From assembly GCA_003149555.1 (NCBI GenBank), contig QCWE01000001.1:1018546-1082545 (forward strand): a stretch of DNA of 64,000 nucleotides, given 5' to 3'. The notes under the pieces were generated by a model that had not been told where the DNA came from, made no database searches, and worked only from the letters and a program-made list of their open reading frames with translations. Of the stretch, positions 2,718 through 62,011 are shown piece after piece. Made by a program: the position numbers and the translations under genes. The stretch is from Candidatus Aquiluna sp. XM-24bin5. GTDB taxonomy: Bacteria > Actinomycetota > Actinomycetia > Actinomycetales > Microbacteriaceae. Position 1 is the first letter of the stretch. Each line of letters begins with the position of its first letter.

Positions 2718-3956
2718 CTATCCGCCCTGAGGGGCGGATTTTTCTTTAACGACCCTGGACGCCCTAATCAGCTGCGGCCCAAAGACAATTAGCGCCAAAA
2801 GGGCCATCACGCCGCCCGCGAGGAAAACCTCCCGCACGCCAAAGATTCCAATCAAGATTCCGCCAAATCCAAGTGACGCCATGCTGCCAGCATTGACGCT
2901 TCCCTGAACCGCTGCCATGATGCGTCCTCTTACTGACTCTTTTGCTCGGCGCTGTATTTGGCCAACGGCAAAGATGTTCACCCCGGCATTACCAAATCCT
3001 GCGAGGAAGTAGACGACGGCTGCAAACTGCCAGCTAGGCGCCTGGGACAGGCCAGTCAGCGCAAGCACCATAAGCAGGATGGCCAGCAGCAGACCCGCAG
3101 CCTGTCTGCTCTCGGGGATCTTCAAAACCTGAAGCAGGATTGCTCCAGAAAGGCTTCCTCCGGCAAATAGCGCCCCTATGAAGCCGTAAATGATTGGAGT
3201 TGCCCCGAGCTCGTCCACTACCAAGAAGACCTCGCCAACATTTATTACACCCAGCGAGAGCACTACCGCCAGCAAGATGATCATGATCGCCCTCAGCACC
3301 GGCTCGGCGATTAGGAACCTGAAGCCATCGAGAGCTCTGGGCTTGGAGCCATCTGCCTCGTGCTGAGGCTTTCTGTTTAGACCAAGTGCGAGAAAGGTGC
3401 CGGCCAAAATCAGAAACGAGACCGAGTCAATAACAAAGGGCCAAAAGAAGCCTGTTGTGCCAACCAGGATTCCGCCAGCTGCTGGCCCAGCGAGGGAGCC
3501 CATGGAGACATAGGTCTGCTGGATGCCCGCAACCCTGGTCATGTCTTCAGGCCTGGAGAGGTAGCCGACAGTGGCCGAGGACGCCGCCCCCACCATCGTC
3601 CCAAAAGTTGCAGTGGTGAATAGGGCAATTGGAGCCCACCAACTTAGCGTGACAAAGGCGATACTCAGCGTGCTCAGCGACATCGCACACAGCGCGAGCG
3701 GGATGACCTTTCGAGATTCGAACCCGTCGGCTATTTGCCCGGAAAATGGGGCCATCAGGACGTTCGGAATCAACATCGCTAACAGGATTATTGAGACCCC
3801 GGTAGGTCCAACGACGTCCTTATCCCTGAGGATGACGGCGAAGGTTGTGAGGCTGCTTCCCATGAAACTTAGACCTGCGGCCATTGACAGTAGCTGAATC
3901 TTTAGGAAAGGTGTGGTCTTCTTTAGCTGGCCATTCGACTCTGACTCTTGACTCAC
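2718..3956 (-). CDS. MFS transporter, DHA3-like exporter
   Basis: A 412-aa membrane protein with about 12 hydrophobic segments and the MFS loop motif GQIADGFESRKVIP near residue 75. The sequence style (TCR/DHA3-like, related to EntS and macrolide exporters) suggests drug or metabolite efflux, but the substrate cannot be told. The GTG start at 3956 is favoured because TAGTGT lies exactly 7 bp upstream on the same strand, predicting a leaderless mRNA. The gene converges with rpsN, and its stop codon lies in the foot of the rpsN terminator. Confidence 0.8.
   Translation of the reverse strand: MSQESESNGQLKKTTPFLKIQLLSMAAGLSFMGSSLTTFAVILRDKDVVGPTGVSIILLAMLIPNVLMAPFSGQIADGFESRKVIPLALCAMSLSTLSIAFVTLSWWAPIALFTTATFGTMVGAASSATVGYLSRPEDMTRVAGIQQTYVSMGSLAGPAAGGILVGTTGFFWPFVIDSVSFLILAGTFLALGLNRKPQHEADGSKPRALDGFRFLIAEPVLRAIMIILLAVVLSLGVINVGEVFLVVDELGATPIIYGFIGALFAGGSLSGAILLQVLKIPESRQAAGLLLAILLMVLALTGLSQAPSWQFAAVVYFLAGFGNAGVNIFAVGQIQRRAKESVRGRIMAAVQGSVNAGSMASLGFGGILIGIFGVREVFLAGGVMALLALIVFGPQLIRASRVVKEKSAPQGG
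2720..2747 (+). terminator. Intrinsic terminator of the rpmB-rpmG-rpsN operon
   Basis: An 8-bp stem (ATCCGCCC/GGGCGGAT) with the loop TGAG is followed by a T-rich run. It overlaps the last codon of the convergent exporter gene. On the minus strand the hairpin has no T-tract, so it should work mainly for the ribosomal operon. Confidence 0.85.
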
Positions 3957-4063
3957 CCAACCAACACTAGTGGCAATCGGACCATAAGTAGGTGGCTCAA
4001 AAAGTGCCTAAATCCCCTAAAACTCGGGGAAAAATCCACCGCAACACGCCGAAGCCAGAGGTG

Positions 4064-4111
4064 CTTGCACCCCCGTGGGTGGCTATAGGTTGATTGGGAC
4101 ATTAATGTCCC
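4064..4111 (+). promoter_or_regulatory. HU gene promoter with a 16-bp palindrome at the start site
   Basis: CTTGCA (4064-4069) and TAGGTT (4086-4091) form a plausible promoter with a 16-bp spacer. An inverted repeat CACCC-N4-GGGTG (4068-4081) lies in the spacer. The perfect palindrome GGGACATTAATGTCCC (4096-4111) covers the expected transcription start. Either could be an operator; the palindrome could also form a hairpin at the mRNA 5' end. Confidence 0.55.
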
Positions 4112-4133
4112 TAACAAGTCCAGGAGGACCATT

Positions 4134-4406
4134 ATGAACAAGAGCGAACTCGTAGCAGCAGTTGCATCGCACACTGGCGAGTCGCAGGCCGCCGTTGGCC
4201 GCGTTATCGACGCAATGTTTGACACCATTGCCGCTTCCATCAAGAAGGGTGACAAGGTCACCATTCCTGGTTACCTAAGCGTAGACAAGGGCCACCGTAA
4301 GGCTCGCACCGGCCGTAACCCACAGACCGGCGCGACCATTCAGATTGCTGCAGCTAACACCGTCAAGGTTTCAGCTGGAAGCAAGCTAAAGGCTGCTGTT
4401 AAGTAA
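4134..4406 (+). CDS. hup: HU-family DNA-binding protein
   Basis: A 90-aa histone-like protein of standard bacterial length. It has the N-terminal dimerisation helices (MNKSELVAAVASHTGES) and the beta-arm motif GRNPQTGATIQIAA that inserts into the DNA minor groove. It lacks the long Lys/Ala-rich tail found in mycobacterial HupB. AGGAGGACCATT before the ATG is a strong ribosome binding site. Codon choice resembles that of the ribosomal genes, consistent with high expression. It is monocistronic, with its own promoter and terminator. Confidence 0.95.
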   Translation: MNKSELVAAVASHTGESQAAVGRVIDAMFDTIAASIKKGDKVTIPGYLSVDKGHRKARTGRNPQTGATIQIAAANTVKVSAGSKLKAAVK

Positions 4407-4420
4407 CAACCTAAATCAGC

Positions 4421-4452: not shown

Positions 4453-4472
4453 TTTGGAATAGGCTTTAGTGC

Positions 4473-11538: not shown

Positions 11539-11550
11539 TAACCTCTACCC

Positions 11551-12147
11551 ATGCTGCTCTCAGATGGTGATATCAAAAAGCAAATAGACGCCGGTCGAAT
11601 TGGCCTCGAGCCTCTAAATCTGGACCTGTTGCAGCCAAGCAGCATCGACGTTCGTCTCGACAGGTTCTTTCGCCTGTTCGATAACCACAAGTATCCCTTT
11701 ATTGACCCTCGCGAGCAGCAGGATGATCTAACTAGGTTTGTCGAGGTTGCCTCAGACGAAGCCTTTATCCTTCACCCGGGAGAGTTTGTGCTGGGCTCCA
11801 CGTTCGAATATGTGAGCCTCCCGGATGACATTGCTGCAAGGCTTGAGGGCAAGAGCTCTCTTGGGCGCCTTGGTCTTCTGACTCACTCAACAGCTGGCTT
11901 TGTTGACCCGGGCTTTGAAGGGCATGTGACCTTAGAGCTTTCCAACGTCGCGACGTTGCCGATTAAGCTTTGGCCCGGCATGAAGATTGGCCAGCTCTGC
12001 TTCTTCCAGCTCTCGTCTGCGAGTGAGAACCCATATGGCAGCGAGAAGTACGGCTCGAGGTATCAGGGGCAAAGGGGGCCAACTGCCTCACGCAGCCACC
12101 TCAAGTTCCATATCACAGATGTTGGCAACGAACCACTAGACAAATAG
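11551..12147 (+). CDS. dcd: dCTP deaminase
   Basis: A 198-aa enzyme that deaminates dCTP to dUTP, feeding dTMP synthesis (some actinobacterial members also hydrolyse dUTP). The core motif [20 protein letters not shown] around residues 110-130 holds the catalytic residues, and [13 protein letters not shown] follows. TAACCT ends 6 bp before the ATG and there is no Shine-Dalgarno sequence, so a leaderless mRNA is predicted. The last 12 bp overlap the convergent M56-like peptidase gene. Confidence 0.93.
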
Positions 12148-12843
12148 CTTTCGCGCCTCAAAGAGGTCTTTCGAGTAGACCTTCTTGAGTGCGTACTTAT
12201 CTGCCGCGTGTTCGCAGAGGACATCAATCTCTCGCTTTAGCGCCCTGGATGCCACGACCCATGGCAGCAGCTGGTAGATCAGGTAGGCGAGCTTTTTGAT
12301 TAGACCATGCTTGAGCTTGATGTGCCCATACTCGTGTCTGAGGATTGCATCCCGCTGCCGGCTTGGGAGCTCAAAGACTGCCATTGAAAGGTAAATGGTG
12401 TTTTTTCGGGTCAGGGCAAAATAACCGGGGATCTCAAGCTCAACGATCCTGGCCCTGCGGTAGTTCATGATGTAGCGGCCACCAAGACTCTCGAGGTCTC
12501 CAAGCTCTGGCAAGACCTCGAACAGCGGCGCCAGTCTCTGATTTCCAAGCGCAATCAAGACACCTGCCAGAGCCAGCAACACCCAAGGGGCAAAGCTGGC
12601 TACCAACACAAACCCCAGGTCATCAGAGCTCTGGAGGGTTTGGTAGGTGGAGAAAACGGAGTAACCAGCCAGGGCGACTGCAGCAATTGTGGCTGCGATG
12701 CTGCTTAGCAGCGAGATCAACCAGAGGAAGATCCCGAGGTTTGGCACCTTGCGAAATCGGCCCGCGAAGAACATGGGGGCTGCAATTGTCACCAGCAGCA
12801 CCCACTCCAGAAGGAGTATCAAAAGATAGAGGTTGTTCTCCAC
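12136..12843 (-). CDS. M56/M48-type membrane metallopeptidase (BlaR1-like)
   Basis: A 235-aa protein with about three N-terminal membrane helices and a zinc-protease motif HEYGH (about residues 168-172) followed by CEHAADKYA, which supplies the third ligand. It is far shorter than BlaR1/MecR1 and lacks a penicillin-binding sensor domain. It follows a BlaI-type repressor gene by 9 bp, the usual partner arrangement. By analogy it may cleave or relieve the repressor, but what it senses is unknown. No beta-lactamase gene is present. Confidence 0.75.
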
Positions 12844-12852
12844 CTAAAGAGA

Positions 12853-13209
12853 CTACTTGTCGAGTGCCGCCCTGAGTTCCTTGAGCTGTTTGGCTGTTAG
12901 TCCGCTCGCAAAGTGGCTAAAGACCGCAGCTGGGTTACCGGTTTGACCGACTAGGTCAACTAATGCTTTGGCGGTGTGCTGTTCTCTAGTGGTTAGCGAC
13001 TGGAAGATAAAGCCTCTGCCCGGACCCGCTGACTTAGTTACTAGCCCCTTATCTTCGAGTCTTGATAGCACGGTGAGGATAGTGGTGACCTTGATGCTGT
13101 CATCGCCGATTAGAGCGAGGATTTGCTGGCTGGATAGTCCAGCTGGCCTGTCCCACAGGCAGCTGAGAACCTCAGACTCCAGCTCACCCTGCTTTCGCTT
13201 TGTGCTCAT
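12853..13209 (-). CDS. BlaI/MecI/CopY-family transcriptional repressor
   Basis: A 118-aa winged-helix protein (ESEVLSCLWDRPAGLSSQQI, then the recognition helix region VTTILTVLSRLEDKGLV around residues 40-57), typical of BlaI/CopY regulators. It is in an operon with the peptidase gene downstream. A perfect 17-bp inverted repeat lies 7 bp before the start codon and overlaps a TAGAAT box placed 6 bp from the ATG. This fits autorepression of a leaderless mRNA. Confidence 0.85.
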   Translation of the reverse strand: MSTKRKQGELESEVLSCLWDRPAGLSSQQILALIGDDSIKVTTILTVLSRLEDKGLVTKSAGPGRGFIFQSLTTREQHTAKALVDLVGQTGNPAAVFSHFASGLTAKQLKELRAALDK

Positions 13210-13216
13210 GCAGGAA

Positions 13217-13233
13217 TTCTACATGGTGTAGAA
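13217..13233 (-). promoter_or_regulatory. BlaI-type operator overlapping the promoter
   Basis: TTCTACA-TGG-TGTAGAA is a perfect 7-bp inverted repeat with a 3-bp spacer, close to known BlaI/MecI operators (TACA-N-TGTA core). Read on the minus strand, the -10 candidate TAGAAT (13221-13216) lies inside it and ends 6 bp before the repressor ATG. Confidence 0.7.
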
Positions 13234-14554: not shown

Positions 14555-14625
14555 GAGCTTGAGAGTAGTCCTATTGCAGGCCAATTGGCGCAAGAAATTA
14601 GTGACGAGTCGGTGAATATCCCAAA

Positions 14626-20669: not shown

Positions 20670-21378
20670 GGTTTCCAGCGAGCTTAGGAAGCTTGGAAAC
20701 CCAGCCCTCGCAAAAAGCCAGGAGTGGTTCTACAAAACCGGTCCAGGTGAATACGGTGAGGGCGACAAGTTTCTGGGCATTAGAGTGCCAGTTTCCCGCT
20801 CGGTTGCCACGAACTTCAAGAATCTGCCCTTAGCTGAGATCAAGGAGCTTGCAATGAGCGAGTTCCACGAGGAACGGTTTTGTGCGTTGGTGATCCTGGT
20901 CAACCGCTACAAGTCGTCCAAGGATATCGAGAATCGAGAGGAACTGTTCAACCTCTACCTGGAGCTTCTTGATTTGCGCAAGGTAAATCACTGGGATTTG
21001 GTGGACTGCTCGGCGACACACTTGGGTGCGCAGCTCCTTGGTAGACAGGATGTCTTTGAATACCTCAAAACATTTGCCGACAGTTCTGACCTATGGAAGC
21101 AACGAGTGTCGATTATCTTTACCTACGCACTAATACGCGAGCATGAGCTTGAGCCAACATTTGAGATTGTTGAGCATCTTATGGGTCATGAGCACGACCT
21201 GATTCATAAGGCCTCCGGCTGGATGCTGAGGGAAGCAGGCAAGAAAGACCTAGCTGCACTCAGGCGTTTTCTGGAGGCTCACGCGGCCACCATGCCAAGA
21301 ACGATGCTGCGCTACGCGATTGAAAAGATGTCCAGGGAAGAACGCGATAACTGGCTCAGCCGGAAATCGAAGCTGTAA
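20656..21378 (+). CDS. DNA alkylation repair protein, AlkD-like
   Basis: A 240-aa all-helical protein of the AlkC/AlkD HEAT-repeat family. Typical parts are [11 protein letters not shown] near residue 40, the run [11 protein letters not shown], and [18 protein letters not shown] near 115, which contains the Trp-Asp pair used in catalysis by AlkD (removal of N3- or N7-alkyl purines). The start lies 14 bp inside clpB, so it is part of the heat-shock operon. Its last 23 bp overlap the convergent xth. Confidence 0.88.
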
Positions 21379-22135
21379 CCGGGACGTGGTCACTAGGGCC
21401 CTCGCCCTTGCGCTCGTCTCTTTCTATGGTTCCGCTTTTGATTCTCTCGGTTAGCTCCGGGGAGCTGAGAATAAAGTCAATTCGCATCCCCTCGTTTCTT
21501 GGGAACCTGAGGTCTTTGTAGTCCCAATAGGTGTAGCCCTCGGGGACAAACTGTCGGTGCAGATCGGTGAAGCCAATTTGCTCGAAGACATCAAAGACAT
21601 CACGCTCGGGCTGGGAGACATGGGTCTCAAAGAACCCGACATTGAATACATCGGAGTCCAGCGGCGCAATGTTGAAATCCCCAACCAGGGCGATTTGAGA
21701 CTCTGGGTTTTCCTCTAGTTCCTCCGCAACATGGGAGCCAAGTCGCTCCAAAAACTCCAGTTTGTAGTCCATGTGTGGGTCATCGAGGCCCCTGCCGTGG
21801 GGAACATAGAGGCTCCAGATTCTCACGTCGTTGAAGGTCGCTCCAAGTGCTCTCGCCTCGAGCACATCTTTGAAGTGGGGCTGCTGGGGAAACGAGGTCT
21901 CAACTTCTGCCGGCTCCAGATTCTCCTTGAAGGCAAAGGCAACGCCGTTCCACTGGTTCAGCCCGTGGGCAATGACCTTGTAGCCAATCGCCTCAAAGTC
22001 CGCGTAGGGAAACTGCTCGGGCTTGCACTTGATTTCTTGCATTGCCAAGACATCAACCTGGGTGCGCTCAAGGAACTGAGTCACCCTTTGAGCTCTCGCC
22101 CTTACCGAGTTGACGTTCCAGGTTGCAATTTCCAC
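21356..22135 (-). CDS. xth: Exodeoxyribonuclease III / AP endonuclease
   Basis: A 259-aa endonuclease/exonuclease/phosphatase-fold enzyme with MEIATWNVNSVRAR, the metal ligand in QEIKC, GDFNIAP and the catalytic SDHVPV near the end. It incises at abasic sites and acts as a 3'-5' exonuclease in base excision repair. It lies tail-to-tail with the alkD-like glycosylase gene, a functionally matching neighbour. The GTG start has TAGAGT 6 bp upstream; the promoter shares a 15-bp gap with pyrE. Confidence 0.95.
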   Translation of the reverse strand: MEIATWNVNSVRARAQRVTQFLERTQVDVLAMQEIKCKPEQFPYADFEAIGYKVIAHGLNQWNGVAFAFKENLEPAEVETSFPQQPHFKDVLEARALGATFNDVRIWSLYVPHGRGLDDPHMDYKLEFLERLGSHVAEELEENPESQIALVGDFNIAPLDSDVFNVGFFETHVSQPERDVFDVFEQIGFTDLHRQFVPEGYTYWDYKDLRFPRNEGMRIDFILSSPELTERIKSGTIERDERKGEGPSDHVPVTASISG

Positions 22136-22150
22136 TCCTAAACTCTAACT
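22136..22150. promoter_or_regulatory. Minimal divergent promoter between xth and pyrE
   Basis: Only 15 bp separate the two start codons. On the plus strand TAAACT (22139-22144) ends 6 bp before the pyrE ATG. On the minus strand TAGAGT (22147-22142) ends 6 bp before the xth GTG. The two -10 boxes overlap by 3 bp, and any -35 boxes must lie inside the opposite gene. Confidence 0.65.
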
Positions 22151-22708
22151 ATGACTTCTTCCTCCCCAGACAAGGCCAAGCTTGCTGAGCTTGTATCAAA
22201 GCTGGCCGTGGTGCATGGCAAGGTCACGCTTTCATCTGGGATCGAAGCTGACTACTACGTGGACCTGAGAAGGGCCACGCTGCATCACGAGGCCGGGGTA
22301 TTGGTTGGCAAGGTGATGCTAGATCTGCTTGAAGAAAACGATCTCGCCCCAAGCGCAGTTGGTGGGTTGACCATGGGAGCCGACCCGGTAGCGACCGCGA
22401 TGCTCCACCAGGCGAGCGGGCGCGGCATGAACCTAGATGCCTTTGTTGTGCGCAAGGAAGCGAAGAAACATGGCATGGCCAGGCAGGTCGAGGGGCCAGA
22501 CATATCTGGCCGCAAGGTAGTCATTCTGGAGGACACTTCAACAACTGGCGGGTCGCCATTGACTGCCGCCAAGGCCGCCGAAGAAGCAGGGGCTGAGGTG
22601 TTGGGAATTGCCACCGTCGTAGATCGCGATACCGGTGCTCGTGCGGCTATAGAATCAGCTGGCTACGCGTATTACTCAGCACTCTCGCTGAGTGATTTAG
22701 GTCTCTAG
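22151..22708 (+). CDS. pyrE: Orotate phosphoribosyltransferase
   Basis: A 185-aa PRTase with the PRPP-binding motif VVILEDTSTTGGS (about residues 118-130) and the lysine-rich loop VRKEAKKHGMARQVEG preceding it. It converts orotate and PRPP to OMP in pyrimidine synthesis. It is separated from other pyr genes here. The mRNA is predicted to begin at the ATG itself. Confidence 0.95.
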   Translation: MTSSSPDKAKLAELVSKLAVVHGKVTLSSGIEADYYVDLRRATLHHEAGVLVGKVMLDLLEENDLAPSAVGGLTMGADPVATAMLHQASGRGMNLDAFVVRKEAKKHGMARQVEGPDISGRKVVILEDTSTTGGSPLTAAKAAEEAGAEVLGIATVVDRDTGARAAIESAGYAYYSALSLSDLGL

Positions 22709-23928: not shown

Positions 23929-23954
23929 GAAATCTAGGCAATACGCTTTAGGTT

Positions 23955-26594: not shown

Positions 26595-27254
26595 GTGGCA
26601 AGTTTTCGCGAAATGCTCGGCAAGCTCTTTGATCGGGTCGAGTTCCTCTACATGGTTCTTGGATTCGGCTATCTGGGCATTTACTCGGTGCAGGTCCTGG
26701 TCGAACCACCTGCAGACATTTACGCCTCGCTCGAGCTTGTGGCGGAAGTTATTTTCTGGATTTTTGCCGTTGATGTCGTCTTGAGAATCATTCACGCAGG
26801 AGGCGAGCTTCTCACCTGGAAAGGTGCGCTTGAGTTTTTGAGGGAAAATTGGTTTGCCCTTCTTGCACTCTTGCTTCCAGCCTTCAGGAGCCTTCGGGTG
26901 CTGAGGGTGATAGTTGTCCTTAGGGGCCTTGAGCCCTACCTAAATACTCGCTCGTCCAGGGTTGGAATGATCGTTGGTGTTACCTTCCCCCTCATTCTTT
27001 ACACAGCGGCGCTCTCGATATTCGAGGCGGAGAGATATGCCGACGGTTCTAACATTCAGTCCTTTGGTGATGCTGTTTGGTGGTCAATCGCCTCGGTCAC
27101 GACCGTCGGCTATGGAGATAAGTTCCCTGTCACGGCAGATGGCAGGGTAATTGCAACCTTCTTGATGGTGATTGGCATTGGATTGTTCTCGGCCTTGACC
27201 GCACTCCTCGCAGCCTGGGTAATGGGAGATCGAAAGAAGGAGTCGCAGGGTTAG
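26595..27254 (+). CDS. Voltage-gated-type potassium channel
   Basis: A 219-aa six-helix channel subunit. The fourth segment carries regularly spaced arginines (FRSLRVLRVIVVLRGLEPYL, about residues 96-115), a voltage-sensor pattern. The pore loop has the K+ selectivity filter TTVGYGD near residue 171. It would form a tetramer for K+ flux at the cytoplasmic membrane. There is no cytoplasmic RCK/TrkA domain. GTG start with GAAAGGA upstream. Confidence 0.9.
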   Translation: MASFREMLGKLFDRVEFLYMVLGFGYLGIYSVQVLVEPPADIYASLELVAEVIFWIFAVDVVLRIIHAGGELLTWKGALEFLRENWFALLALLLPAFRSLRVLRVIVVLRGLEPYLNTRSSRVGMIVGVTFPLILYTAALSIFEAERYADGSNIQSFGDAVWWSIASVTTVGYGDKFPVTADGRVIATFLMVIGIGLFSALTALLAAWVMGDRKKESQG

Positions 27255-27263
27255 GCTGGGTTT

Positions 27264-27620
27264 ATGAGCGAATGGACAGTAAAAGTACCGGGAAACGAAC
27301 ACCACCTATCAACCGAGGAGCTAAAGCTCTGGGCTGAGGGCGGAAAAATCAAAGGCGACACGATTGTGGTCGATGCTCGTGGTGAGCACTGGACCGCCAA
27401 GCAGATTCCCGGAGTGTTTTCAAAGCGCGATTGGCTGGTAACACTCCTGCTTTCGGTGTTTGTCGGAACCTTTGGAATCGACCGCTTTTACCTTGGCAAG
27501 ATCGGAACCGGAGTTCTCAAGCTTCTCACCTTCGGAGGCTTCGGTGTTTGGTCGATCATCGACATTGTCTTGGTGGCAATCAAGAAGCTAAACGACAAAG
27601 AGGGCTACAAGCTCGCCTAG
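27264..27620 (+). CDS. TM2 domain-containing membrane protein
   Basis: A 118-aa protein. Residues 1-55 form a GYF_2-like soluble part (TVKVPGNEHHLSTEELKLWAEGGKI). Residues 56-115 are a TM2 domain: two helices with the conserved GTFGIDRFYLGKIGTGVLKL. Its function is unknown; TM2 proteins are widespread. TAGGCT ends 6 bp before the ATG, predicting a leaderless mRNA. Its TAG stop forms a shared CTAG with the stop of the convergent NUDIX gene. Confidence 0.85.
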   Translation: MSEWTVKVPGNEHHLSTEELKLWAEGGKIKGDTIVVDARGEHWTAKQIPGVFSKRDWLVTLLLSVFVGTFGIDRFYLGKIGTGVLKLLTFGGFGVWSIIDIVLVAIKKLNDKEGYKLA

Positions 27621-28000
27621 CAGCTAGGTATCAGAAGCTTTTTCAGAGCTGGAATGTCTGGCTCAGCCCAATCAAGCTTGCTCAGCTCGCTTTCTTTCAC
27701 CCAGCGCAGTTCGCTGTGATCGGTTGATGTTGTTGGTTTTTCGCCTTCTAGCAAGGCGACAAAGCACACCAGTTCAATATCGCCTGTCGTGCTGCGGTCA
27801 AACTGTCGGATAACTGCGATCTCAACGCCGAGCTCTTCTTTGATCTCTCGATAGAGCGCTTCTTGTAGGGACTCACCCTGCTCTGGCTTACCCCCTGGAA
27901 ACTCCCACTTGCCGGCGGCCTGCTTATGGGGGGCCCGTTTGCAGCAGAGGTAGTTGTCCTCTCTGTCTTGAATTATTGCGGCGACAACTAGCGTGGGCAT
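27617..28000 (-). CDS. NUDIX hydrolase, MutT-like
   Basis: A 127-aa protein with a complete NUDIX box, GGKPEQGESLQEALYREIKEELG (23 residues, about 35-57, given by its key residues G, E, R-E-x-x-E-E). The style is that of 8-oxo-dGTP diphosphatases, so it may clean the nucleotide pool. TAATCT ends 6 bp before the ATG and overlaps the stop codon of the upstream glutathione peroxidase gene. Confidence 0.88.
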   Translation of the reverse strand: MPTLVVAAIIQDREDNYLCCKRAPHKQAAGKWEFPGGKPEQGESLQEALYREIKEELGVEIAVIRQFDRSTTGDIELVCFVALLEGEKPTTSTDHSELRWVKESELSKLDWAEPDIPALKKLLIPSC

Positions 28001-28009
28001 GAGCCCAGA

Positions 28010-28492
28010 TTAGCCCTGGAGGTTCGCTTCTATCGCTTCGATGATCTCTGGAGCGTCGGGCCTTACAGTGGGGCGGAAGCGCATTGCCCTGCCATCGGGG
28101 AGCAATAGAAACTTTTCGAAGTTCCACATCACAGGACCTGCGAGGCCTTTCGAGTCTTTGATTTTGACCAGTTCTTTGTAGAGGTCGTGTCGCTTGCGTC
28201 CATTGACATCGGTTTTCTCTGTCATGGGAAAGGTGATTCCCCAGGTGCTGGAGCAGTACTCCCCAATCGCGGCCTCATCTTTGAGCTCCTGCTTGAACGA
28301 GCCAGAGGGGACCCCGAGGACAGTAAAGCCGCGGTCCTGATACTTTTTCTGAAGCTCCTCCAAAGCCTCGTATTGAGGTGAAAGGCCGCAGCGAGATGCC
28401 ACGTTCACAACCAGCACGACCTTGCCAGCGAAGTCAGAGAGCGACCTCGAAGACCCATCGAGCATGGTGAGCGATATCTCTTTTGTAAGCAT
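28010..28492 (-). CDS. Glutathione peroxidase-family thiol peroxidase
   Basis: A 160-aa thioredoxin-fold peroxidase. The active-site region NVASRCGLSPQYEALEEL has the catalytic Cys in place of Sec, and GPVMWNFEKFLL supplies Trp and Asn of the catalytic tetrad. Actinobacteria usually lack glutathione, so it probably draws electrons from thioredoxin (inference). I prefer the ATG at 28492; a TTG 18 bp upstream would add six residues. It lies 9 bp upstream of the NUDIX gene, another oxidative-damage function. Confidence 0.88.
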   Translation of the reverse strand: MLTKEISLTMLDGSSRSLSDFAGKVVLVVNVASRCGLSPQYEALEELQKKYQDRGFTVLGVPSGSFKQELKDEAAIGEYCSSTWGITFPMTEKTDVNGRKRHDLYKELVKIKDSKGLAGPVMWNFEKFLLLPDGRAMRFRPTVRPDAPEIIEAIEANLQG

Positions 28493-29187: not shown

Positions 29188-30153
29188 CTATGAGCCTAGG
29201 GCCAAGAGGAACTTTGCAACGGCATTGGCAAACTCGGTGGGTTTTTCTTCATTGGGGAGGTGACCGGTCTGCGGGATAACCACGAGCTCCGCGCCCATTA
29301 TTTTGGCCACCTCGATGGAGTCTTCTGTTGCCACTATCTCGTCGGTATCGCCGGTGATTACGAGGGTGGGGATGGTTATCTCTGTAAGCCGCTCGCCAAT
29401 AGTCCTGTCTCGTGGGGCTTTATTAAACTCCCAGAACGCTCGCTCCCAACCAATAACTTCAAGCGGTGCGGTGTAGCCCTTTAGGGTTTCATCGGTGACG
29501 GCGCTCTCGTCGAAGTAGCTGGCATAGAGGATGTCGAGGCCGCTGGTGGCAATTGTTGATACGAGCAGTGGACCTAGGTGGTCTAGTTGTGGGATGTCAT
29601 AGATCCAATTGATGCCGCTCGGTCCGCCACCACCCGATAGCACGGCAGGCGCAAATAGCACTAGGCCTGCCAGCTTGTCTTGGTGCTTGGCTGCGTAGCT
29701 TGCGGCGATCGAACCCCCAGCGGAGTGGCCGACCACAAAGACGTCTTTCCCTTGACCGAATAGTTCAATTAGCTCATCCAGTACTTGAAGCTGACCGGGG
29801 GTGCCATAGGGGTTTGTTTCCCAATCAGTTGGTCTTTCAGTAAAACCAAATGCGGCACGGTCGTAGGCAATCACATGCCCAACCTCGCCAAGAATCTCGA
29901 GGTTGCCTTTATACGAGAATGCGCTCGCCCCAAAGCCGTGGAGAAGCACGATAAGGCGCTCAGAGCCTCGGTCTCCTGCCTCAACGAAGTGCACCTGGTG
30001 ACCTGCAACCTCAACAAACTTTGACTGCCCATTCCAGAGGTTCGCAGCTGCCTCTTCCTTGGTGAGGGTGCCGGAGGTATTTACAGGTATCAGAAACGGG
30101 ACGACAAGGATTGCTCCCAGAACAACGAGCAAAATAACGCGCAGTTTCTTCAC
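29188..30153 (-). CDS. Membrane-anchored alpha/beta-hydrolase
   Basis: A 321-aa protein with an N-terminal hydrophobic anchor (LRVILLVVLGAILVVPFL), then an alpha/beta-hydrolase fold: oxyanion region LLHGFGASA near residue 72, nucleophile elbow GHSAGG near 143, acid in TGDTDEI near 270 and His in TGHLPNEE near 298. Substrate unknown. GTG start at 30153. Confidence 0.82.
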   Translation of the reverse strand: MKKLRVILLVVLGAILVVPFLIPVNTSGTLTKEEAAANLWNGQSKFVEVAGHQVHFVEAGDRGSERLIVLLHGFGASAFSYKGNLEILGEVGHVIAYDRAAFGFTERPTDWETNPYGTPGQLQVLDELIELFGQGKDVFVVGHSAGGSIAASYAAKHQDKLAGLVLFAPAVLSGGGGPSGINWIYDIPQLDHLGPLLVSTIATSGLDILYASYFDESAVTDETLKGYTAPLEVIGWERAFWEFNKAPRDRTIGERLTEITIPTLVITGDTDEIVATEDSIEVAKIMGAELVVIPQTGHLPNEEKPTEFANAVAKFLLALGS

Positions 30154-33138: not shown

Positions 33139-33179
33139 CCCGACATTTTAGCGAAGCCAAGTTTGCTTAGACTAGGGGT

Positions 33180-35686: not shown

Positions 35687-36012
35687 TCCTTCTTGTACCA
35701 CCTACATTGAGCAATAGCCTCTTCGATGGGGTTTAGTAGCAGGTCATGAGTATCTGGGTGTTTCTCCATGTATCGGACCGTGTAGGAGCAGACCGGCACA
35801 ACCTTCTCCGTGCCCTTCTCCCTGATGTCAGCCAGTGACTCTCTTAGCAGTATTGCCGCGAGGTTCTTGCCCTGGTGAGCCGGGTCAACCTCGGTGTGGA
35901 CGAGGTGAATTTCTCCAGGCATCAGGCTGTAGTCCATGAGACCCACGCGATCTTCCTCAAGAAAGATCTCGTAGCGCTTATTGGCTTGGTCGTGAACGAC
36001 TTTTGTCTCCAT
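35683..36012 (-). CDS. GNAT-like N-acetyltransferase (YjdJ/Gtn type)
   Basis: A 109-aa short GNAT domain. The acetyl-CoA loop is visible as VDPAHQGKNLAAILL (about residues 43-57), and VCSYTVRYMEKHPD is typical of the small YjdJ subfamily. Acceptor unknown. It is divergent from the methyltransferase gene, with 18 bp between the starts. Confidence 0.82.
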   Translation of the reverse strand: METKVVHDQANKRYEIFLEEDRVGLMDYSLMPGEIHLVHTEVDPAHQGKNLAAILLRESLADIREKGTEKVVPVCSYTVRYMEKHPDTHDLLLNPIEEAIAQCRWYKKD

Positions 36013-36030
36013 GCTGTTAACCTCTTCTCC

Positions 36031-36870
36031 GTGAGCGGCAATCAGGTCTACCTAGCAGACAACCTACCTCTCTTGCGCTCACTTCCAGACGAGTCGGTGC
36101 AGCTGATTTACATCGACCCTCCGTTTAACACTGGCAGGGAGCAGGAGCGGACTACCCGTACCTCCAAAGCCTCTGACTCTGGTTCGGTTGGGTTCGCTGG
36201 CAAGCGCTACGAGCAGATTGTTCAAAGTGCACTCAGTTATGACGACAGTTTTGCTGATTACTGGGAGTTTTTAGAGCCGAGACTCATCGAAGCTAAAAGG
36301 CTGCTTACCAAAACCGGAACGCTTTATCTGCATCTTGATTACCGGGAGGCTCACTATGCAAAGGTGCTGCTCGATGGGCTGTTTGGCAGAGACAACTTCT
36401 TGAACGAAATCATCTGGGCATATGACTATGGGGGAAAGTCAAAATCGAAATGGCCAGCAAAGCACGACACGATTTTGGTCTATGTAAAAGACCCAAAGAA
36501 CTATTACTTTGACTCGGCAACTGTTGATAGGGAGCCCTACATGGCACCCGGTCTTGTCACCAAGGAGAAGGCCGAGCTCGGCAAGCTGCCAACCGATGTT
36601 TGGTGGCACACAATCGTCTCTCCAACCGGCAAAGAAAAAACTGGCTACCCGACCCAGAAGCCCGAGGGCATCCTTAGAAGAATCATTCAGGCAAGCTCGA
36701 AGCCGGGCGATCGGGTGTTGGACTTCTTTGCCGGCAGTGGCACGACGGGAGTTGTTGCAGGCGAGCTTGGCAGGCTATTCACTCTTATTGATCAGTCGCC
36801 GGACTCTTTTGAAACGGTTACTACGAGGCTCCGCTCTCGGGGCTTGAGCTTCGAGACTCCTGAGAAATAA
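36031..36870 (+). CDS. Site-specific DNA methyltransferase (beta class), solitary
   Basis: A 279-aa amino-methyltransferase. The catalytic motif IV DPPFNTG (near residue 30) comes before the SAM-binding motif I DFFAGSGTT (near 232), the beta-class order used by N6-adenine and N4-cytosine enzymes. The GTG start at 36031 is favoured by TAACCT 7 bp upstream; a longer reading frame upstream overlaps the GNAT gene antisense and has no motif. No restriction nuclease lies nearby, so it may be a regulatory or orphan methyltransferase. The last 50 bp overlap the convergent permease gene. Confidence 0.85.
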   Translation: MSGNQVYLADNLPLLRSLPDESVQLIYIDPPFNTGREQERTTRTSKASDSGSVGFAGKRYEQIVQSALSYDDSFADYWEFLEPRLIEAKRLLTKTGTLYLHLDYREAHYAKVLLDGLFGRDNFLNEIIWAYDYGGKSKSKWPAKHDTILVYVKDPKNYYFDSATVDREPYMAPGLVTKEKAELGKLPTDVWWHTIVSPTGKEKTGYPTQKPEGILRRIIQASSKPGDRVLDFFAGSGTTGVVAGELGRLFTLIDQSPDSFETVTTRLRSRGLSFETPEK

Positions 36871-40993: not shown

Positions 40994-41020
40994 GAGAACT
41001 CCAAGAAATAGGGTTTAGGT

Positions 41021-43836: not shown

Positions 43837-43887
43837 GAAAGCATCGTATTGCCATCTTTGATTTAGTGCCTGCCCTAATCTTGTTGC

Positions 43888-45731: not shown

Positions 45732-45770
45732 CAGACAAGCCTAACGGGAGGTAGAAGATAGGCTAAGGGG

Positions 45771-47036
45771 GTGATTGACCTCTCCCTGCTGCGCGAAAAC
45801 CCCGACATTATTCGGCTATCGCAGCGAGCTCGCGGAGCGGATGAGTCACTTGTTGATCAAGCACTTGAGCTAGATAAAACCAGTAAGGCTTCCCTGCAGC
45901 TATTTGAAAAGCTCAGGTCCGAACAGAATGCTCACGGCAAGCTGGTTGCTGCAGCGCCAAAGGAAGAGAAGGCTGAGCTGGTTGCTCAGGCCCAGTCCAT
46001 GGCCCAGCAGGTGAAAGAGGCAGAGGCAAAGGCTAATCAGGCATACGAAGCCCTCAGTGCCGTGCTCTACAAAATTGACAACGTTGTTATTGAGGGGGTT
46101 CCCTCGGGTGGCGAGGATGACTTTGTAGTCCTTCGCGAAGAGGGGAAGAAGCCTGAGTTTGATTTCAAGGCTCTTGACCACGCGGAGCTTGGCGAAAGTC
46201 TCGATGTCATCGACATTGAGCGCGGTGTGAAGATCTCTGGCTCGAGGTTTTATTTCTTGAAGGGCTGGGGAGCAAGGCTGGAGCTTGCGATGATGCAGCT
46301 TGCGCTTGACCAGGCCCATGCTGCAGGTTTCACGCCCCTAATTACCCCCACGCTCGTCAGACCAGAGGTGATGCAGGGAACAGGGTTTTTAGGCGAGCAC
46401 TCTTCCGAGATCTATTACCTGGAGGCAGACGACCTCTACCTCACTGGAACCAGCGAGGTTGCGCTCGCCGGTTATCACTCCGGTGAGATTCTTGATGATT
46501 TCCAGGAGCCGATGAGGTATGCCGGTTGGTCAACCTGCTACCGCAGAGAGGCCGGCAGTCACGGCAAGGACATCAAGGGCATTCTCCGGGTCCACCAGTT
46601 CAACAAGCTGGAGATGTTCTCCTACTGCAAGCCTGAGGATGCCGAGGCTGAACATGAGCGCATGCTTGCTTGGCAAGAAGAGATGCTGCAGAAGTGCGAG
46701 CTGCCCTACCGAGTAATCGATGTTGCTGCCGGCGATCTCGGGTCTTCGGCCGCCAGAAAGTATGACGTTGAGGCGTGGGTGCCATCTCAGGGTAAATACC
46801 GGGAGCTAACTTCAACCTCGAACTGCACCACTTTCCAGGCCAGGCGGCTCAACACCCGCTATCGCGATGAGAACGGCAAGACGCAGATGCTTGCGACTCT
46901 CAATGGAACACTCGCCACAACTAGATGGCTGGTTGCAATTTTGGAGAACCACCAGCACGCGGATGGCTCGGTGAGGATCCCTCAGGCCCTGCAGCCCTAC
47001 CTCGGCGGACTAGAAAAGATAAGCCCCAAAGCCTAG
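45771..47036 (+). CDS. serS: Seryl-tRNA synthetase
   Basis: A 421-aa class II synthetase. The N-terminal coiled coil (about residues 30-100) grips the long variable arm of tRNA-Ser; motif 2 is [14 protein letters not shown] and motif 3 lies in [21 protein letters not shown] ends 6 bp before the GTG start, predicting a leaderless mRNA. A tRNA-Ser gene stands 850 bp downstream. Confidence 0.97.
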
Positions 47037-47883: not shown

Positions 47884-47971
47884 GGAGGTCTGTCCGAGCG
47901 GCCGAAGGAGCTGGTCTTGAAAACCAGTGGGCAGAAATGTCTCGTGGGTTCGAATCCCACGGCCTCCGCCA
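47884..47971 (+). tRNA. tRNA-Ser(UGA)
   Basis: An 88-nt class II tRNA with acceptor GGAGGTC/GGCCTCC, anticodon loop CTTGAAA (anticodon TGA), a long variable arm, TTCGAAT T-loop and encoded GCCA 3' end. A TAAACT box at 47871-47876 ends 7 bp before the first base of the mature tRNA. Confidence 0.97.
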
Positions 47972-53794: not shown

Positions 53795-53824
53795 AAGTAA
53801 AGTCTAGTTTTCATAGGCAGTTGA

Positions 53825-55045
53825 TTGAGCCGGCCAGAGTTTCAATTTATAGAACCAGAGCGCCCGAAGCGTAGGCGCTGGTTGCGCTACGTCCTCATGG
53901 CAATTGCTGCCACCGTCGCAGTTGCAATGGTCACCCTAGGCGGTGGAGTTGTCTACGTTTCATCCCAGCTGAGGGCTGCGGGAATTGAGGTTTTCTCTAC
54001 TGACGGCGAGACCTACGATTTACCAACGCCCGAGGAAATAAACGGTCCAATAAACCTGCTCCTGATTGGTTCCGATACCAGGGAGGGCCAGGGTTCGACC
54101 GCATACGGCCCCGTTGGCGCTGAGCTCGCCGATGTCATCATCCTGCTTCACATCAATGAGGCTCGCACAAATGCCGTTGCGATGAGCTTCCCAAGAGATC
54201 TCATGATTGCCGTTCCTGAGTGCCCAAACCCTGACGGTGGTGAACCATACCCGGCCAAGGAGTTTTCGCAGATAAACGCCACCATGAACTACGGCGGCCC
54301 CGCTTGCACCCTCCTGGCAGTCCAGTCGTTGACCGGCATCGACATCCCCTACCTTGCGATGATCGACTTCAAGGGCGTGATCGCAATGAGTGAGGCAGTT
54401 GGCGGAGTGGATGTCTGTGTCGCAGAGCCAATCAATGACGATTACACACAGCTTTACCTTGAGGCCGGGGAGCACACCCTCATTGGAGAAGAGGCCCTTG
54501 CCTTCCTCCGCACCCGCCACGGAGTTGGCGATGGCTCTGACCTCTCTCGCATCTCAAACCAGCAGGTCTTCCTCACCTCACTGGTTAGAAAGCTCAAAGA
54601 CGAGGGTGCTCTCACTAACCCCTTCACCATGTTCCGCCTCGGTACAGCAGCGCTGAACAACATGACGCTTTCTAGGTCTCTCACCGACCTAGGCGTGATC
54701 TACGGCATGGCAAGAGAGGTAAACGACGTTGACCTCGACAAGATCACTTTCTTGAAGCTCCCCGTGTATGACTTGGAGGGTGATTTTGCTGGAAGGGTTG
54801 GGGTCTCCACCGAGCGCGCAACTTTACTTTTCGAGAAGCTCGCCAATGATGAGCCATTAGTTCTAGCGGAGGCGAACCTAGGACCCGGTGCTGTGGTCGC
54901 GGAGGACAGTGAGCCGGCGGAACAGGCGACCGATGCTGAGGCCGATCCTGAGGCAGCAGACAATGAGGTGACCAGTGATTCAGAGGAGGTCCTTCCTGAG
55001 TGGGTTCAGGGCACTAACGCATCCGTCAAGAGCTGCTCAAGCTAG
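53825..55045 (+). CDS. LytR-CpsA-Psr (LCP) family cell-wall glycopolymer ligase
   Basis: A 406-aa protein with a short cytoplasmic tail rich in Arg/Lys, one membrane helix (about 22-42) and an extracellular LCP domain: NLLLIGSDTREGQ, AVAMSFPRDLMIAVP, and LAFLRTRHG give the conserved Asp and Arg residues that bind the polyprenyl phosphate. The C-terminal tail is acidic and low-complexity. LCP enzymes attach teichoic-acid-like or arabinogalactan-type polymers to peptidoglycan. The start is TTG with TAGGCA 5 bp upstream; no Shine-Dalgarno sequence. Confidence 0.9.
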   Translation: MSRPEFQFIEPERPKRRRWLRYVLMAIAATVAVAMVTLGGGVVYVSSQLRAAGIEVFSTDGETYDLPTPEEINGPINLLLIGSDTREGQGSTAYGPVGAELADVIILLHINEARTNAVAMSFPRDLMIAVPECPNPDGGEPYPAKEFSQINATMNYGGPACTLLAVQSLTGIDIPYLAMIDFKGVIAMSEAVGGVDVCVAEPINDDYTQLYLEAGEHTLIGEEALAFLRTRHGVGDGSDLSRISNQQVFLTSLVRKLKDEGALTNPFTMFRLGTAALNNMTLSRSLTDLGVIYGMAREVNDVDLDKITFLKLPVYDLEGDFAGRVGVSTERATLLFEKLANDEPLVLAEANLGPGAVVAEDSEPAEQATDAEADPEAADNEVTSDSEEVLPEWVQGTNASVKSCSS

Positions 55046-55345: not shown

Positions 55346-55350
55346 CTGAG

Positions 55351-59992: not shown

Positions 59993-60544
59993 ATGAAAAA
60001 GCTCATCGCCCTCGCATCCCTCTTGCCGCTTCTTGTCGGCTGCGCTCAGGCCGAAAGTCTTCCGGAGGCGCAGGAGCTCCCCGCGGTAAAGAACTTCATC
60101 GCCTCTGCAGCGCCCGAGGCCACAAGTGAGGTCGTTACCTTCGCGGATGTAGTCAAAGACAGCTACGAGCTTTTTCTCGAAAACGGGATGACCGAGGAGG
60201 TCACCTCTGGTGGGGATCGCTACATCCTGACCTATGAGCCGGGCGAAGAATTTGTTGCTGCTTTATACAACTTTGATTTCGATGATGTTGTGGGAGTTGA
60301 GCAGAAAGAGCTGTTTACCGTTTACTCGGCATGGGTGATGCTCTCTGAGCAGGCAACTGTGATCGAACAGACGGATCAGGGCTACTCGCTCTCTCACCCC
60401 GATTATGGAAGCTTTGTAGTTTTTGTTGAAGACAATCTGATTGTTGGGGGAGAGGGAATAGATGCCGGGTGGACAGGTGTTTTTCGGTATGAGCCCGACC
60501 CCGACATACTTGCACTATTAGACTCAGAGCCGGGGGATGGTTAG
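59993..60544 (+). CDS. Small lipoprotein of unknown function
   Basis: A 183-aa protein with a signal peptide MKKLIALASLLPLLVGC, ending in a lipobox, so it is lipid-anchored outside the membrane. The mature part is strongly acidic with no recognised domain. TAGGCT ends 9 bp before the ATG; a TTG two codons upstream is less likely. Its stop codon is in frame with the following small gene, separated by only 27 nt. Confidence 0.75.
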   Translation: MKKLIALASLLPLLVGCAQAESLPEAQELPAVKNFIASAAPEATSEVVTFADVVKDSYELFLENGMTEEVTSGGDRYILTYEPGEEFVAALYNFDFDDVVGVEQKELFTVYSAWVMLSEQATVIEQTDQGYSLSHPDYGSFVVFVEDNLIVGGEGIDAGWTGVFRYEPDPDILALLDSEPGDG

Positions 60545-60571
60545 GCCAACTCGACCCTAGGAGAAGCGGGC

Positions 60572-60862
60572 ATTAAGCGATTTTTCGGTAGCTCACGTTC
60601 GGATAACCGAACTGGCGCGGCTTTGCCCGAAGTCAATTTCGACTCCCCAGACGAGAAGGAGTTCGAAAGCCAGGTGAAGAACTGGCGCGGCAAGCTCTCA
60701 TCGGAGGTGGAGAGCTCTTTCAACCCTGAGGCTTCGAAGTATTTCTCATCGACTGCACTTTCTGAGAGTCGCAAGGCTCGCCTCGAGCGCAAGAGGCTGG
60801 AGCGCGAGAGCAAGGCGAACGAAAAGGCCAAGGCAAAGCCAAGAGCTAGTAAAAAGAAGTAG
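60572..60862 (+). CDS. Small basic protein, probably with a rare ATT start
   Basis: The frame holds a 96-aa protein, IKRFFGSSRSDNRTGAALPE at the start and a Lys/Arg/Ala-rich tail (KANEKAKAKPRASKKK). It has no ATG or GTG start. The ATT at 60572 has a strong ribosome binding site (AGGAGA) 8 bp before it; a TTG at 60623 has none and would give 79 aa. Family unknown; the basic tail suggests nucleic acid or membrane-surface binding. A hairpin GTTCGG-ATAA-CCGAAC lies at 60597-60612. Confidence 0.6.
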   Translation: MKRFFGSSRSDNRTGAALPEVNFDSPDEKEFESQVKNWRGKLSSEVESSFNPEASKYFSSTALSESRKARLERKRLERESKANEKAKAKPRASKKK

Positions 60863-60883
60863 TTTGGGCTAGCCTTTTCTCCC

Positions 60884-62011
60884 ATGAGCGAGCCAACGAA
60901 AAAGGTATTCGGCACGGCCGTTGGCGGTTATAACCGCAACGAGGTCGACCAGTACATCGCATGGCTACAAAAGAACCTCACAGATCTCGAGAGCTATAAC
61001 TCGCTTGCTGTTCGTGAGCAGCAGACTCTTCGTGAGCGCCTAGTCGAGGTTGAGGAGCAGCTCAAGGCTGCGAAGTCCCCCGGCTACGCTCAGCTCGGTG
61101 CAAAGTTCGAGGAGACCCTGAGGCTTGCCGAGAGCGAGGCGGCAAAGCTCATCAACGATGCCGGTAAGGAAGCACTCAAGGCTCGGGAGACTGCCAAGGC
61201 CGAGGCCGAGCGGATTCGCTTCGAGGCTGAGGATGAGGTCGCAAAGCTGCAGGCCAAGGCACAGCGCGAGACCAAGGCACTTCTCTCCCAGGCAAAAGCC
61301 GACGCCAACCAGATCAAAGAAGAGGCTGAAGACGAGCTTCAGCGGGTCCAGGCCGAGCGCGCTCAGCTTGATAAAGAGGCAGCGGTCGTTCGCTCTGATG
61401 CCGATAACTACGCGGCAAAGGTCAAGGCCGAGCTCCAGGTTGAGGTTGAGAAGATTCAGACCGAGAACGCTCGCCTCCTAAAGCGCAACGCCGAGATTGA
61501 ATCTGAGATCAGAGAAAAGATTGATCAGGGAGAGAAGCAGGCGCTGGAGATTTTCCGCAGGGTTCAAAAAGAGGCCGAGGAGATGCGCGATGAGGCAGAG
61601 CGTGAGCTGAAGGCGGCAACCGCAGAGGCAAGCTCGCTAATTGAAAATGCAGAGCAGACTCTTGAGAACGCTCGAACCGAGGCAGACCGCCTAGCCGCAG
61701 AGTCTGAGTCGATGGCCCTAAATATCATCGCTGATGCCAGGTCAAGAGCCGAGAAGCTCTCGATGCGCTCTCTCGAGATAACCCAGGCAGCCATTCAAGA
61801 CGCTGAGGCAAGACTAAGCAGGCTGCCTTCCCAGCAAAACGCGATTGAAGAATTCATTGCAGAGACAAAGTCTTTGCTAACTCCTGAGCAGGAAATGGCA
61901 ATCAGCCGACGCAAGACCATTGAGGAATCTCGCAAGCCAATCGAACCTGAGGTTGTAGCCGAAGAGGCCGAAGAAGTTGTTGTCGAGACCGAGCCTGACG
62001 AGAAGTCCTAA
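60884..62011 (+). CDS. DivIVA-domain coiled-coil protein
   Basis: A 375-aa protein. The N-terminal FGTAVGGYNRNEVDQYIAWLQKN is a DivIVA-type membrane-curvature-sensing domain. Residues 30-320 are almost unbroken coiled coil rich in Glu, Lys, Ala and Arg, and the tail is acidic. It is not the Wag31 orthologue by sequence style, but probably takes part in polar growth or septum placement. TAGCCT ends 8 bp before the ATG. Its stop is shared with the convergent desaturase (CTAA). Confidence 0.85.
   Translation: MSEPTKKVFGTAVGGYNRNEVDQYIAWLQKNLTDLESYNSLAVREQQTLRERLVEVEEQLKAAKSPGYAQLGAKFEETLRLAESEAAKLINDAGKEALKARETAKAEAERIRFEAEDEVAKLQAKAQRETKALLSQAKADANQIKEEAEDELQRVQAERAQLDKEAAVVRSDADNYAAKVKAELQVEVEKIQTENARLLKRNAEIESEIREKIDQGEKQALEIFRRVQKEAEEMRDEAERELKAATAEASSLIENAEQTLENARTEADRLAAESESMALNIIADARSRAEKLSMRSLEITQAAIQDAEARLSRLPSQQNAIEEFIAETKSLLTPEQEMAISRRKTIEESRKPIEPEVVAEEAEEVVVETEPDEKS

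Follow-up and report, generated by a model that had tools for sequence, protein, structure and literature searches.

A TANNNT hexamer that ends 6 or 7 bp upstream of the start codon precedes many genes in a 64,000-nucleotide stretch of contig QCWE01000001.1 of Candidatus Aquiluna sp. XM-24bin5 (the whole stretch is referred to here as the window). As judged from sequence, the hexamer is very probably the -10 element of promoters recognised by the housekeeping sigma factor, with transcription starting at the first base of the codon, and a few divergent gene pairs probably share one such element. Transcripts that begin at the first codon base would be leaderless and hence would carry no Shine-Dalgarno (SD) site. 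The source organism is a small freshwater bacterium, and leaderless genes are usual for its relatives. The G+C content of the window is 54.5%, and the gene calls of this analysis cover 94% of it.

Position of the TANNNT hexamer

The first-pass annotation of the window listed 20 start codons as having TANNNT 6 or 7 bp upstream and no SD sequence. Both observations were confirmed: the hexamer is found at 20/20 starts (6 bp, n=15; 7 bp, n=5), occupying positions -12 to -7 or -13 to -8 relative to the first base of the start codon, and GGAG, GAGG or AGGA is found at positions -17 to -5 of none (0/20). The hexamer TAGGCT, described as recurrent, is indeed present at five of the 20. The listed start codons are 12 ATG and 8 GTG, with no TTG.

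As the starts might have been chosen by the motif in the first place, they were called again with a home-made gene caller that uses a codon-pair score and selects start codons by coding score and codon type only, blind to the motif. TANNNT was then located at 6 bp for 12 and at 7 bp for 3 of 62 testable starts in the window and was rare elsewhere (about 0.5 per position at 9-40 bp; naive binomial P ~1e-13). Fourteen of these 15 starts are on the earlier list; the additional one, at 12843 (minus strand; gene 12136-12843), has its hexamer at 12850..12855, 6 bp away. Six listed starts were not picked by the caller, five because another in-frame start was preferred and one because the gene (27617-28000) was dropped. 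For each of these six, some or all orthologs carry the motif at the same or a nearby start.

A count of TANNNT by distance from all starts, proposed in the first-pass annotation, revealed a genome-wide peak at 6/7 bp in each of three relatives, namely G002 (Aquiluna, one 1.07-Mb contig), G001 (327 kb; the Aquiluna metagenome-assembled genome, MAG, that contains locus L001) and Candidatus Planktophila versatilis (400 kb). For the 988 genes of G002, the counts at distances of 0 to 12 bp were 7, 4, 4, 10, 4, 4, 113, 45, 7, 10, 8, 5 and 3, i.e. 113 and 45 genes at 6 and 7 bp over a background of about 10 per position. The corresponding values were 39 and 16 of 282 genes in G001 (background about 2.5) and 59 and 22 of 344 genes in Planktophila (background about 4), with a naive P < 1e-39 in each of the three. 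In the Aquiluna lineage the hexamer keeps to 6 or 7 bp, and spacings of 5 or 8 bp are almost absent. No peak was seen in a 50-kb control segment of Escherichia coli K-12, in which 1/45 annotated starts had the motif (45 of 48 CDS were used; thrL, mbiA and hokC were excluded).

Evidence for leaderless -10 promoters

When the G002 genes with 6-bp spacing (n=113) were aligned on the start codon, the sequence TA(G/A)NCTt emerged at positions -12 to -6. Information content was seen at -12, -11 and -7, with preferences for G/A at -10, C at -8 and T at -6, and nothing clear was apparent further upstream of the hexamer. A -35 element was sought and rejected, as neither the information content nor a scan for TTGA, TGAC and TTGC gave a clear excess.

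SD-like 4-mers precede 11/158 motif-bearing genes of G002 versus 317/828 other genes, the frequency in a control stretch being 8%; in the window they precede 0/15 versus 20/46. The SD signal is thus near background in genes with the motif and several-fold above it in the remaining genes. In an accompanying check of the anti-SD sequence, a pattern for the 16S 3'-end was unmatched in the sequences examined. TTG start codons are also avoided, accounting for 2/158 motif genes versus 118/830 others in G002 and 0/81 versus 15/263 in Planktophila, in keeping with transcription that begins on a purine.

The gene context points in the same direction. The motif is present in divergent genes and in genes located 0-29 bp behind another gene, but hardly ever occurs in genes that overlap an upstream gene on the same strand and so require no promoter of their own (0/9 in the window, 0/58 in G001, 4/197 in G002 and 3/56 in Planktophila). 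After correction by control spacings, the share of genes with the motif in these four data sets was estimated at 25-47% for divergent genes, 19-45% for genes that follow a same-strand gene by 0-29 bp, 0-14% for those at a greater distance and 0-4% for overlapping genes. Furthermore, a search of seven relatives for sigma-70 proteins with region 3, a search that does not extend to extracytoplasmic function (ECF) sigma factors, found one in each (7/7), and hence one promoter class suffices. The genome appears to use two modes of initiation, a leaderless one at many promoter-proximal genes and an SD-led one at many others, including genes internal to operons.

Orthologs with 50-94% protein identity were obtained for 20 of 22 starts tried, and those with TANNNT at 6 or 7 bp were counted. 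At 17 of the 20, the motif is missing from one ortholog at most (for 10 of these 17 starts only one or two orthologs were available). The hexamer is mostly kept in orthologs while the surrounding bases change. Weaker conservation was seen at 33138 (9/15), 36031 (9/14) and 53825 (1/2).

Over 20% of actinobacterial genes were reported to be leaderless, TA-like signals being taken as the sign (Zheng et al. 2011, PMC3160421), and a leaderless share of 22-26% was given for Mycobacterium tuberculosis (Cortes et al. 2013, PMC3898074). The motif share found here is on the order of these figures, and the leaderless finding itself is therefore ordinary, in agreement with the statement of the first-pass annotation that leaderless mRNAs are common in actinobacteria. 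As in the genes described by Zheng et al., a TANNNT core is located about 10 bp before the start and operon-distal genes tend to be SD-led; there is no difference in kind from the cases in that source (PMC3160421), the Aquiluna lineage as analysed here having 51-55% GC and the consensus TAGNCT(T). The M. tuberculosis transcriptome likewise was described as having a TANNNT -10, no -35 consensus and a preference for purine starts, and of its tRNA synthetase genes for which a primary start is given, half are leaderless (PMC3898074). In the Deinococcus-Thermus group, a -10 directly before the open reading frame (ORF) was also associated with leaderless mRNA (PMC12340547). A special excess of leaderless genes in the Aquiluna lineage was considered and rejected, since nothing sets Aquiluna apart across orthologous loci: the motif is at 6/7 bp in 38/139 cases in Microbacterium, 21/52 in Nanopelagicales, 18/67 in Rhodoluna and related organisms, 38/214 in the Aquiluna clade, 11/199 in Isoptericola and kin, 3/49 in Streptomyces and 0/31 at two non-actinobacterial loci. 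High-GC gene calling in this comparison is rough, and some loci were left ungrouped.

The hexamer is thus fixed in position, nearly exclusive with SD sites, conserved, and accompanied by a start-codon bias, and these indirect tests, together with gene context, concur in supporting leaderless transcription, which is by far the best reading; transcription would start on the first codon base and translation at a 5'-terminal AUG or GUG. A constant distance to the start codon and the replacement of the SD sequence by the hexamer would also be expected if TANNNT were a translation signal, for instance an A/T-rich stretch that is unstructured or contacted by the ribosome, and not a promoter. Yet overlapping same-strand genes need translation starts and nearly lack the motif, the avoidance of TTG fits a purine at the transcription start, and the same 7 bp stand at -10 distance on both strands between menB and menC in 22/22 genomes (see below), so that a translation signal is most improbable. 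The other possibility is chance, with AT-rich hexamers being common and fitting starts having been chosen by the earlier reader. While the 6/20 listed starts that differ from those of the caller would be consistent with such picking, this explanation is refuted by the peak obtained with motif-blind starts in the window and in three relatives, and the conservation of the hexamer in orthologs and the control without a peak in E. coli leave it virtually no probability.

Several points weigh against leaderless -10 promoters as the explanation. The conservation was judged from one or two orthologs at 11 of the 20 starts that have any. At 33138 and 36031 the orthologs that deviate from the 6/7-bp spacing include several with the hexamer at 8 or 9 bp. 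The simple home-made gene caller penalises TTG and GTG, although it does so in all genes alike. Finally, an estimated 25-47% of divergent genes have the exact motif, and many promoter-proximal genes therefore use something else.

The proposal that the spacing is strict enough to pick start codons holds to a fair degree but not absolutely: 87/280 divergent genes of G002 have a motif-bearing start (6/7 bp) at most 45 nt from the start chosen by coding score, versus a mean of 15.9 at control spacings, and hence about one call in five would be false if made without other evidence. Of two near-matches recorded in the first-pass annotation, that at 60884 is correct (TAGCCT, 8 bp), while the sequence 5 bp from 53825, TAGGCA, does not fit TANNNT. 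The start at 53825 is unsupported as a leaderless one. The gene concerned (53825-55045, LytR_cpsA_psr) has an uncertain and doubtful TTG start directly after an in-frame TGA; in G002 the ortholog starts two codons earlier, at a leaderless GTG.

The probable overlapping promoter of xthA and pyrE

The only listed pair in the window with overlapping -10 elements consists of xthA (21356..22135, minus strand), encoding exodeoxyribonuclease III (TIGR00633, 223.7 bits over the cut-off), and pyrE (22151..22708, plus strand), encoding orotate phosphoribosyltransferase (TIGR00336, 110.2 bits over the cut-off). The start codons, GTG at 22135 and ATG at 22151, are separated by 15 bp, with their first bases 16 bp apart, and the -10 elements TAGAGT (xthA) and TAAACT (pyrE), each at 6 bp, overlap in the symmetric 9-mer TAAACTCTA / TAGAGTTTA at 22139..22147. 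Such a symmetric -10 element can be read on both strands in a few divergent pairs, and both genes are probably leaderless from the shared or overlapping element.

This arrangement was detected as a pattern in 14/22 genomes of the Aquiluna genus (15 sites, as one genome has two contig copies), and all 15 sites directly adjoin an xthA match. Its conservation was assessed on loci found by protein, a first set of orthologs having been fetched partly by the pattern itself. An intact xthA ortholog is present in 18/22 genomes, and TAGAGT is located 6 bp before xthA in 18/18. The symmetric core is identical in 14 of the 18, in one of which pyrE is visible only on the second contig copy. In three of the 18, the xthA and pyrE starts are 39 bp apart and have separate -10 elements, each 6 bp from its own start; the leaderless spacing is thus kept even where the promoter geometry has changed. 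In the last of the 18, there is no pyrE in the stretch examined beside xthA. TANNNT is at 6 bp in 16/16 pyrE orthologs seen beside xthA. In one genome of the genus, G011, the xthA ortholog is in two overlapping pieces (L253/L258), one with an internal stop.

Predicted symmetric -10 elements of menB/menC and other pairs

The consensus TAGNCT followed by A makes a 7-mer, TAGNCTA, that can be read as a -10 on both strands and permits two leaderless starts with 17 bp between them. The corresponding pattern, CAY-N5-TAGNCTA-N5-RTG, was found in 18/22 genomes of the Aquiluna genus, and a version with shifted spacing in 0/22. The spacing-shifted pattern was used as the control; a pattern read backwards was dropped, as it has another composition and was nonzero in a number of genomes.

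In the relatives, and outside the window, a pair of this kind is formed by menB and menC. When the loci were located by the MenB protein alone, TAGTCTA was found 6 bp from the menB start in 22/22 genomes of the genus, and the menC start is 6 bp from it in 18 and 7 bp in four (at L267, L272 and L286, where the menB or menC alignment falls short of the protein start, the distance is that of the pattern match). The whole intergenic region is 17-18 bp, with the first codon bases 18 bp apart, or 19 in four genomes. The palindrome is preceded by GA in 22/22, with a T after this GA in 21, and most other spacer bases vary. In the genus Rhodoluna, to which L014 belongs, the pattern was present in 43/60 sampled genomes, and 23/30 fetched sites were menB with menC, a proportion that is not free of bias, the sites having been found by the pattern.

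A third arrangement, in which two -10 elements share TA and 22 bp separate the starts, occurs in 13/22 genomes of the Aquiluna genus at 14 sites that are mostly alike by eye. The G002 copy has a pfkB-family gene on one side and 23 bp between the first codon bases. A second site with 17-bp separation in G005, G018, G023 and G024 (alike by eye) was rejected, as the one copy inspected (L307) is not a gene pair (326 aa on one side, 57 aa on the other).

Across the family sample, the TAGNCTA pattern was found in 84/299 genomes (104 sites), versus 2/299 for the spacing-shifted control. Among 1809 one-sided occurrences, a mirrored start codon was present in 208, versus about 57 expected by chance. 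The Poisson P of 6e-28 is overstated, since the genomes are not independent, related ones inflating the significance and recurring orthologous loci being counted once per genome; the ratio and the number of distinct pairs were relied on instead. Forty of the 104 sites were fetched: ORFs of 80 aa or more flank 22 of them on both sides, 16 on one side and two on neither. One of the 16 (L334) is nevertheless a pair, with a 78-aa glutaredoxin. About four in ten pattern sites may therefore be one-sided or due to chance.

The 22 sites with two ORFs represent 11 distinct gene pairs by our own count (blastp grouping). They include menB/menC in three genomes of the family sample (L297-L299), pabB with a class IV aminotransferase in six genomes (checked by hidden Markov models in two), purD with an SCP_3 gene in four (checked in one) and a polyprenyl synthase with an SCO2097-family gene in two (checked in one). 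Further divergent pairs are msrA with an aldo-keto reductase, a peptidase M13 gene with a MatE gene, a PdtaS-type histidine kinase with an alpha/beta hydrolase, and a DapD-type succinyltransferase with an M20 peptidase. At L303 and L308 the ORF on one side has no recognised domain, and L330 was counted without a content check. Three of the 11 pairs (menB/menC, pabB with the aminotransferase, and the DapD-type gene with the M20 peptidase) are same-pathway pairs.

Proposed use of the shared element

It is fairly likely that these pairs are a recurrent and conserved class of minimal bidirectional units in the Microbacteriaceae, in which one symmetric -10 of 7-10 bp would serve two leaderless genes, the 15-22 bp between the start codons would comprise almost all of the DNA required to start both, and some units would join genes of one pathway as a substitute for an operon on opposite strands. 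The housekeeping holoenzyme would bind the symmetric -10 facing either way, melt it and initiate at the first codon base of whichever gene lies ahead of it. Each mRNA would have AUG or GUG at its 5' end and would require ribosomes competent for leaderless initiation. At the 18-bp separation, an ATG on one strand would place a T at -18 of the other promoter by way of its A; menC often has GTG, which does not supply it. A T at -18 has been reported to be helpful to a promoter (PMC10268837).

Sequence, spacing and conservation of the symmetric pairs are as counted above; the start sites, the use in both directions and any balancing of the two products are predicted from them. Use by one gene only, the mirrored start being coincidental or its gene being promoted otherwise, would account for the 18/40 inspected family sites that lack an ORF of 80 aa or more on one or both sides (L334 being a pair all the same), and the three genomes with separate leaderless -10 elements for xthA and pyrE indicate that the shared element is dispensable. 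It does not readily explain the excess of mirrored start codons, the near absence of the spacing-shifted control, or the retention of both distances at menB/menC in 22/22 genomes found by MenB. One-sided use is consequently regarded as unlikely, and the shared element serving both genes is preferred.

Bidirectional promoters with a symmetric -10 have reportedly been described by Warman et al. in 2021. For divergent starts from one -10, a separation of 18 bp is the commonest, with 10 and 23 bp also common (PMC12825309). The pairs found here resemble such promoters in that their -10 elements overlap (22139-22147) or coincide (TAGTCTA of menB/menC, 22/22), and the separations predicted from the start codons, 18 bp (19 in four genomes) for menB/menC and 23 bp for the PfkB pair, would match common values. 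Together with the 16 bp of xthA/pyrE, they would fall within the 7-25 bp by which divergent starts of such promoters are apart. The 16 bp of xthA/pyrE is not among the preferred 18, 10 and 23 bp, and no 10-bp pairs were covered by the search. The pairs differ from the published promoters in that the predicted transcription starts coincide with the start codons and a 17-bp intergenic region holds both -10 signals. In E. coli, five bidirectional promoters had such low basal transcription that there was no competition between the two directions (PMC12825309), and balancing of two products is therefore only a possibility. The word 'leaderless' has no occurrence in the main text of PMC10268837 or PMC12825309.

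Closely juxtaposed divergent promoters were called common in M. tuberculosis, and a divergent pair with leaderless starts was shown, but the available passages of that paper describe no single symmetric -10 common to two leaderless genes (PMC3898074). The M. tuberculosis genes lysG and lysE are similar in being divergent with overlapping promoters, there with mapped starts, one lysE start lying on the first coding base; they differ in having a 108-bp intergenic region with a regulator site, and the leaderless lysE promoter is not the one overlapping lysG (PMC5648196). The Deinococcus-Thermus report concerns another phylum, and the terms 'bidirectional', 'divergent', 'palindrom-', 'opposite' and 'shared' have no occurrence in PMC12340547. 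No literature report of a shared -10 serving two leaderless genes was found by title or abstract opening, in a search that mostly did not extend to subscription papers. The pairs thus look like bidirectional promoters of which both transcripts would be leaderless, which would make the combination of two known things new.

The leaderless part of these findings mainly aids annotation, as it gives an aid for correcting start codons in the Aquiluna lineage by their spacing, and the shared element matters more. If true, it would place the transcription start, the translation start and the -10 of two genes within 17 bp, RNA polymerase could occupy it in only a single orientation at any moment, and any change in the palindrome would act on both genes. 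Being conserved across two genera, menB/menC is a ready test case for distinguishing balanced output of two genes from a by-product of genome compaction. Rhodoluna lacicola is amenable to transformation and editing (PMC11577799).

Other predicted -10 elements in the window

The remaining predicted -10 elements on the plus strand are TAGGCT at 4460..4465 (7 bp before ATG 4473, PEMT-like; orthologs with the motif, 1/1), TAACCT at 11539..11544 (6 bp before ATG 11551, dCTP deaminase; 1/1), TACGCT at 23942..23947 (7 bp before GTG 23955, SpoU methylase; 2/2), TAGGCT at 27252..27257 (6 bp before ATG 27264, TM2 domain; 1/1) and TAGGGT at 41009..41014 (6 bp before GTG 41021, VanY-type carboxypeptidase; 11/11). 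Those on the minus strand are TAGTGT at 3964..3969 (7 bp before GTG 3956, MFS transporter), for which no ortholog passed the filter, TAGAAT at 13216..13221 (6 bp before ATG 13209, Penicillinase_R family regulator; 1/1), TACTCT at 14562..14567 (7 bp before ATG 14554, MFS transporter; 1/1), TAATCT at 28007..28012 (6 bp before ATG 28000, NUDIX; 2/2), TAGGCT at 29193..29198 (6 bp before ATG 29186; 2/2) and TAGACT at 53801..53806 (6 bp before ATG 53794, GH1 glycosidase; 1/1).

Three further divergent pairs, with 39-51 bp between the start codons, have separate -10 elements, and both genes of each are predicted to be leaderless. They are 33138(-)/33180(+), with TAAAAT at 33145..33150 (6 bp before GTG 33138, UPF0176/rhodanese; 9/15) and TAGACT at 33168..33173 (6 bp before ATG 33180, PepO-like peptidase; 16/16); 43836(-)/43888(+), with TACGAT at 43843..43848 (6 bp before ATG 43836; 5/6) and TAATCT at 43876..43881 (6 bp before ATG 43888, prephenate dehydratase; 8/9); and 45731(-)/45771(+), with TAGGCT at both 45738..45743 (6 bp before GTG 45731, diacylglycerol kinase family; 1/1) and 45759..45764 (6 bp before GTG 45771, serS; 6/6). 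The closest match of the PepO-like protein is 91% identical and comes from an Aquiluna MAG (L001); the next matches, at 69-75% identity, are from MAGs of Aquiluna and of other Microbacteriaceae.

The DNA methyltransferase gene that starts with GTG at 36031 has TAACCT at 36018..36023 (plus strand, 7 bp; 9/14). Beyond this -10, a block like CATGCTGTTAAYCT at 36005-36031 is kept in many of its orthologs, by eye more than at other starts, and is possibly a binding or methylation site for self-control. Some 850 bp after serS (45771-47036) ends, a tRNA-Ser(TGA) gene is located at 47884-47971.

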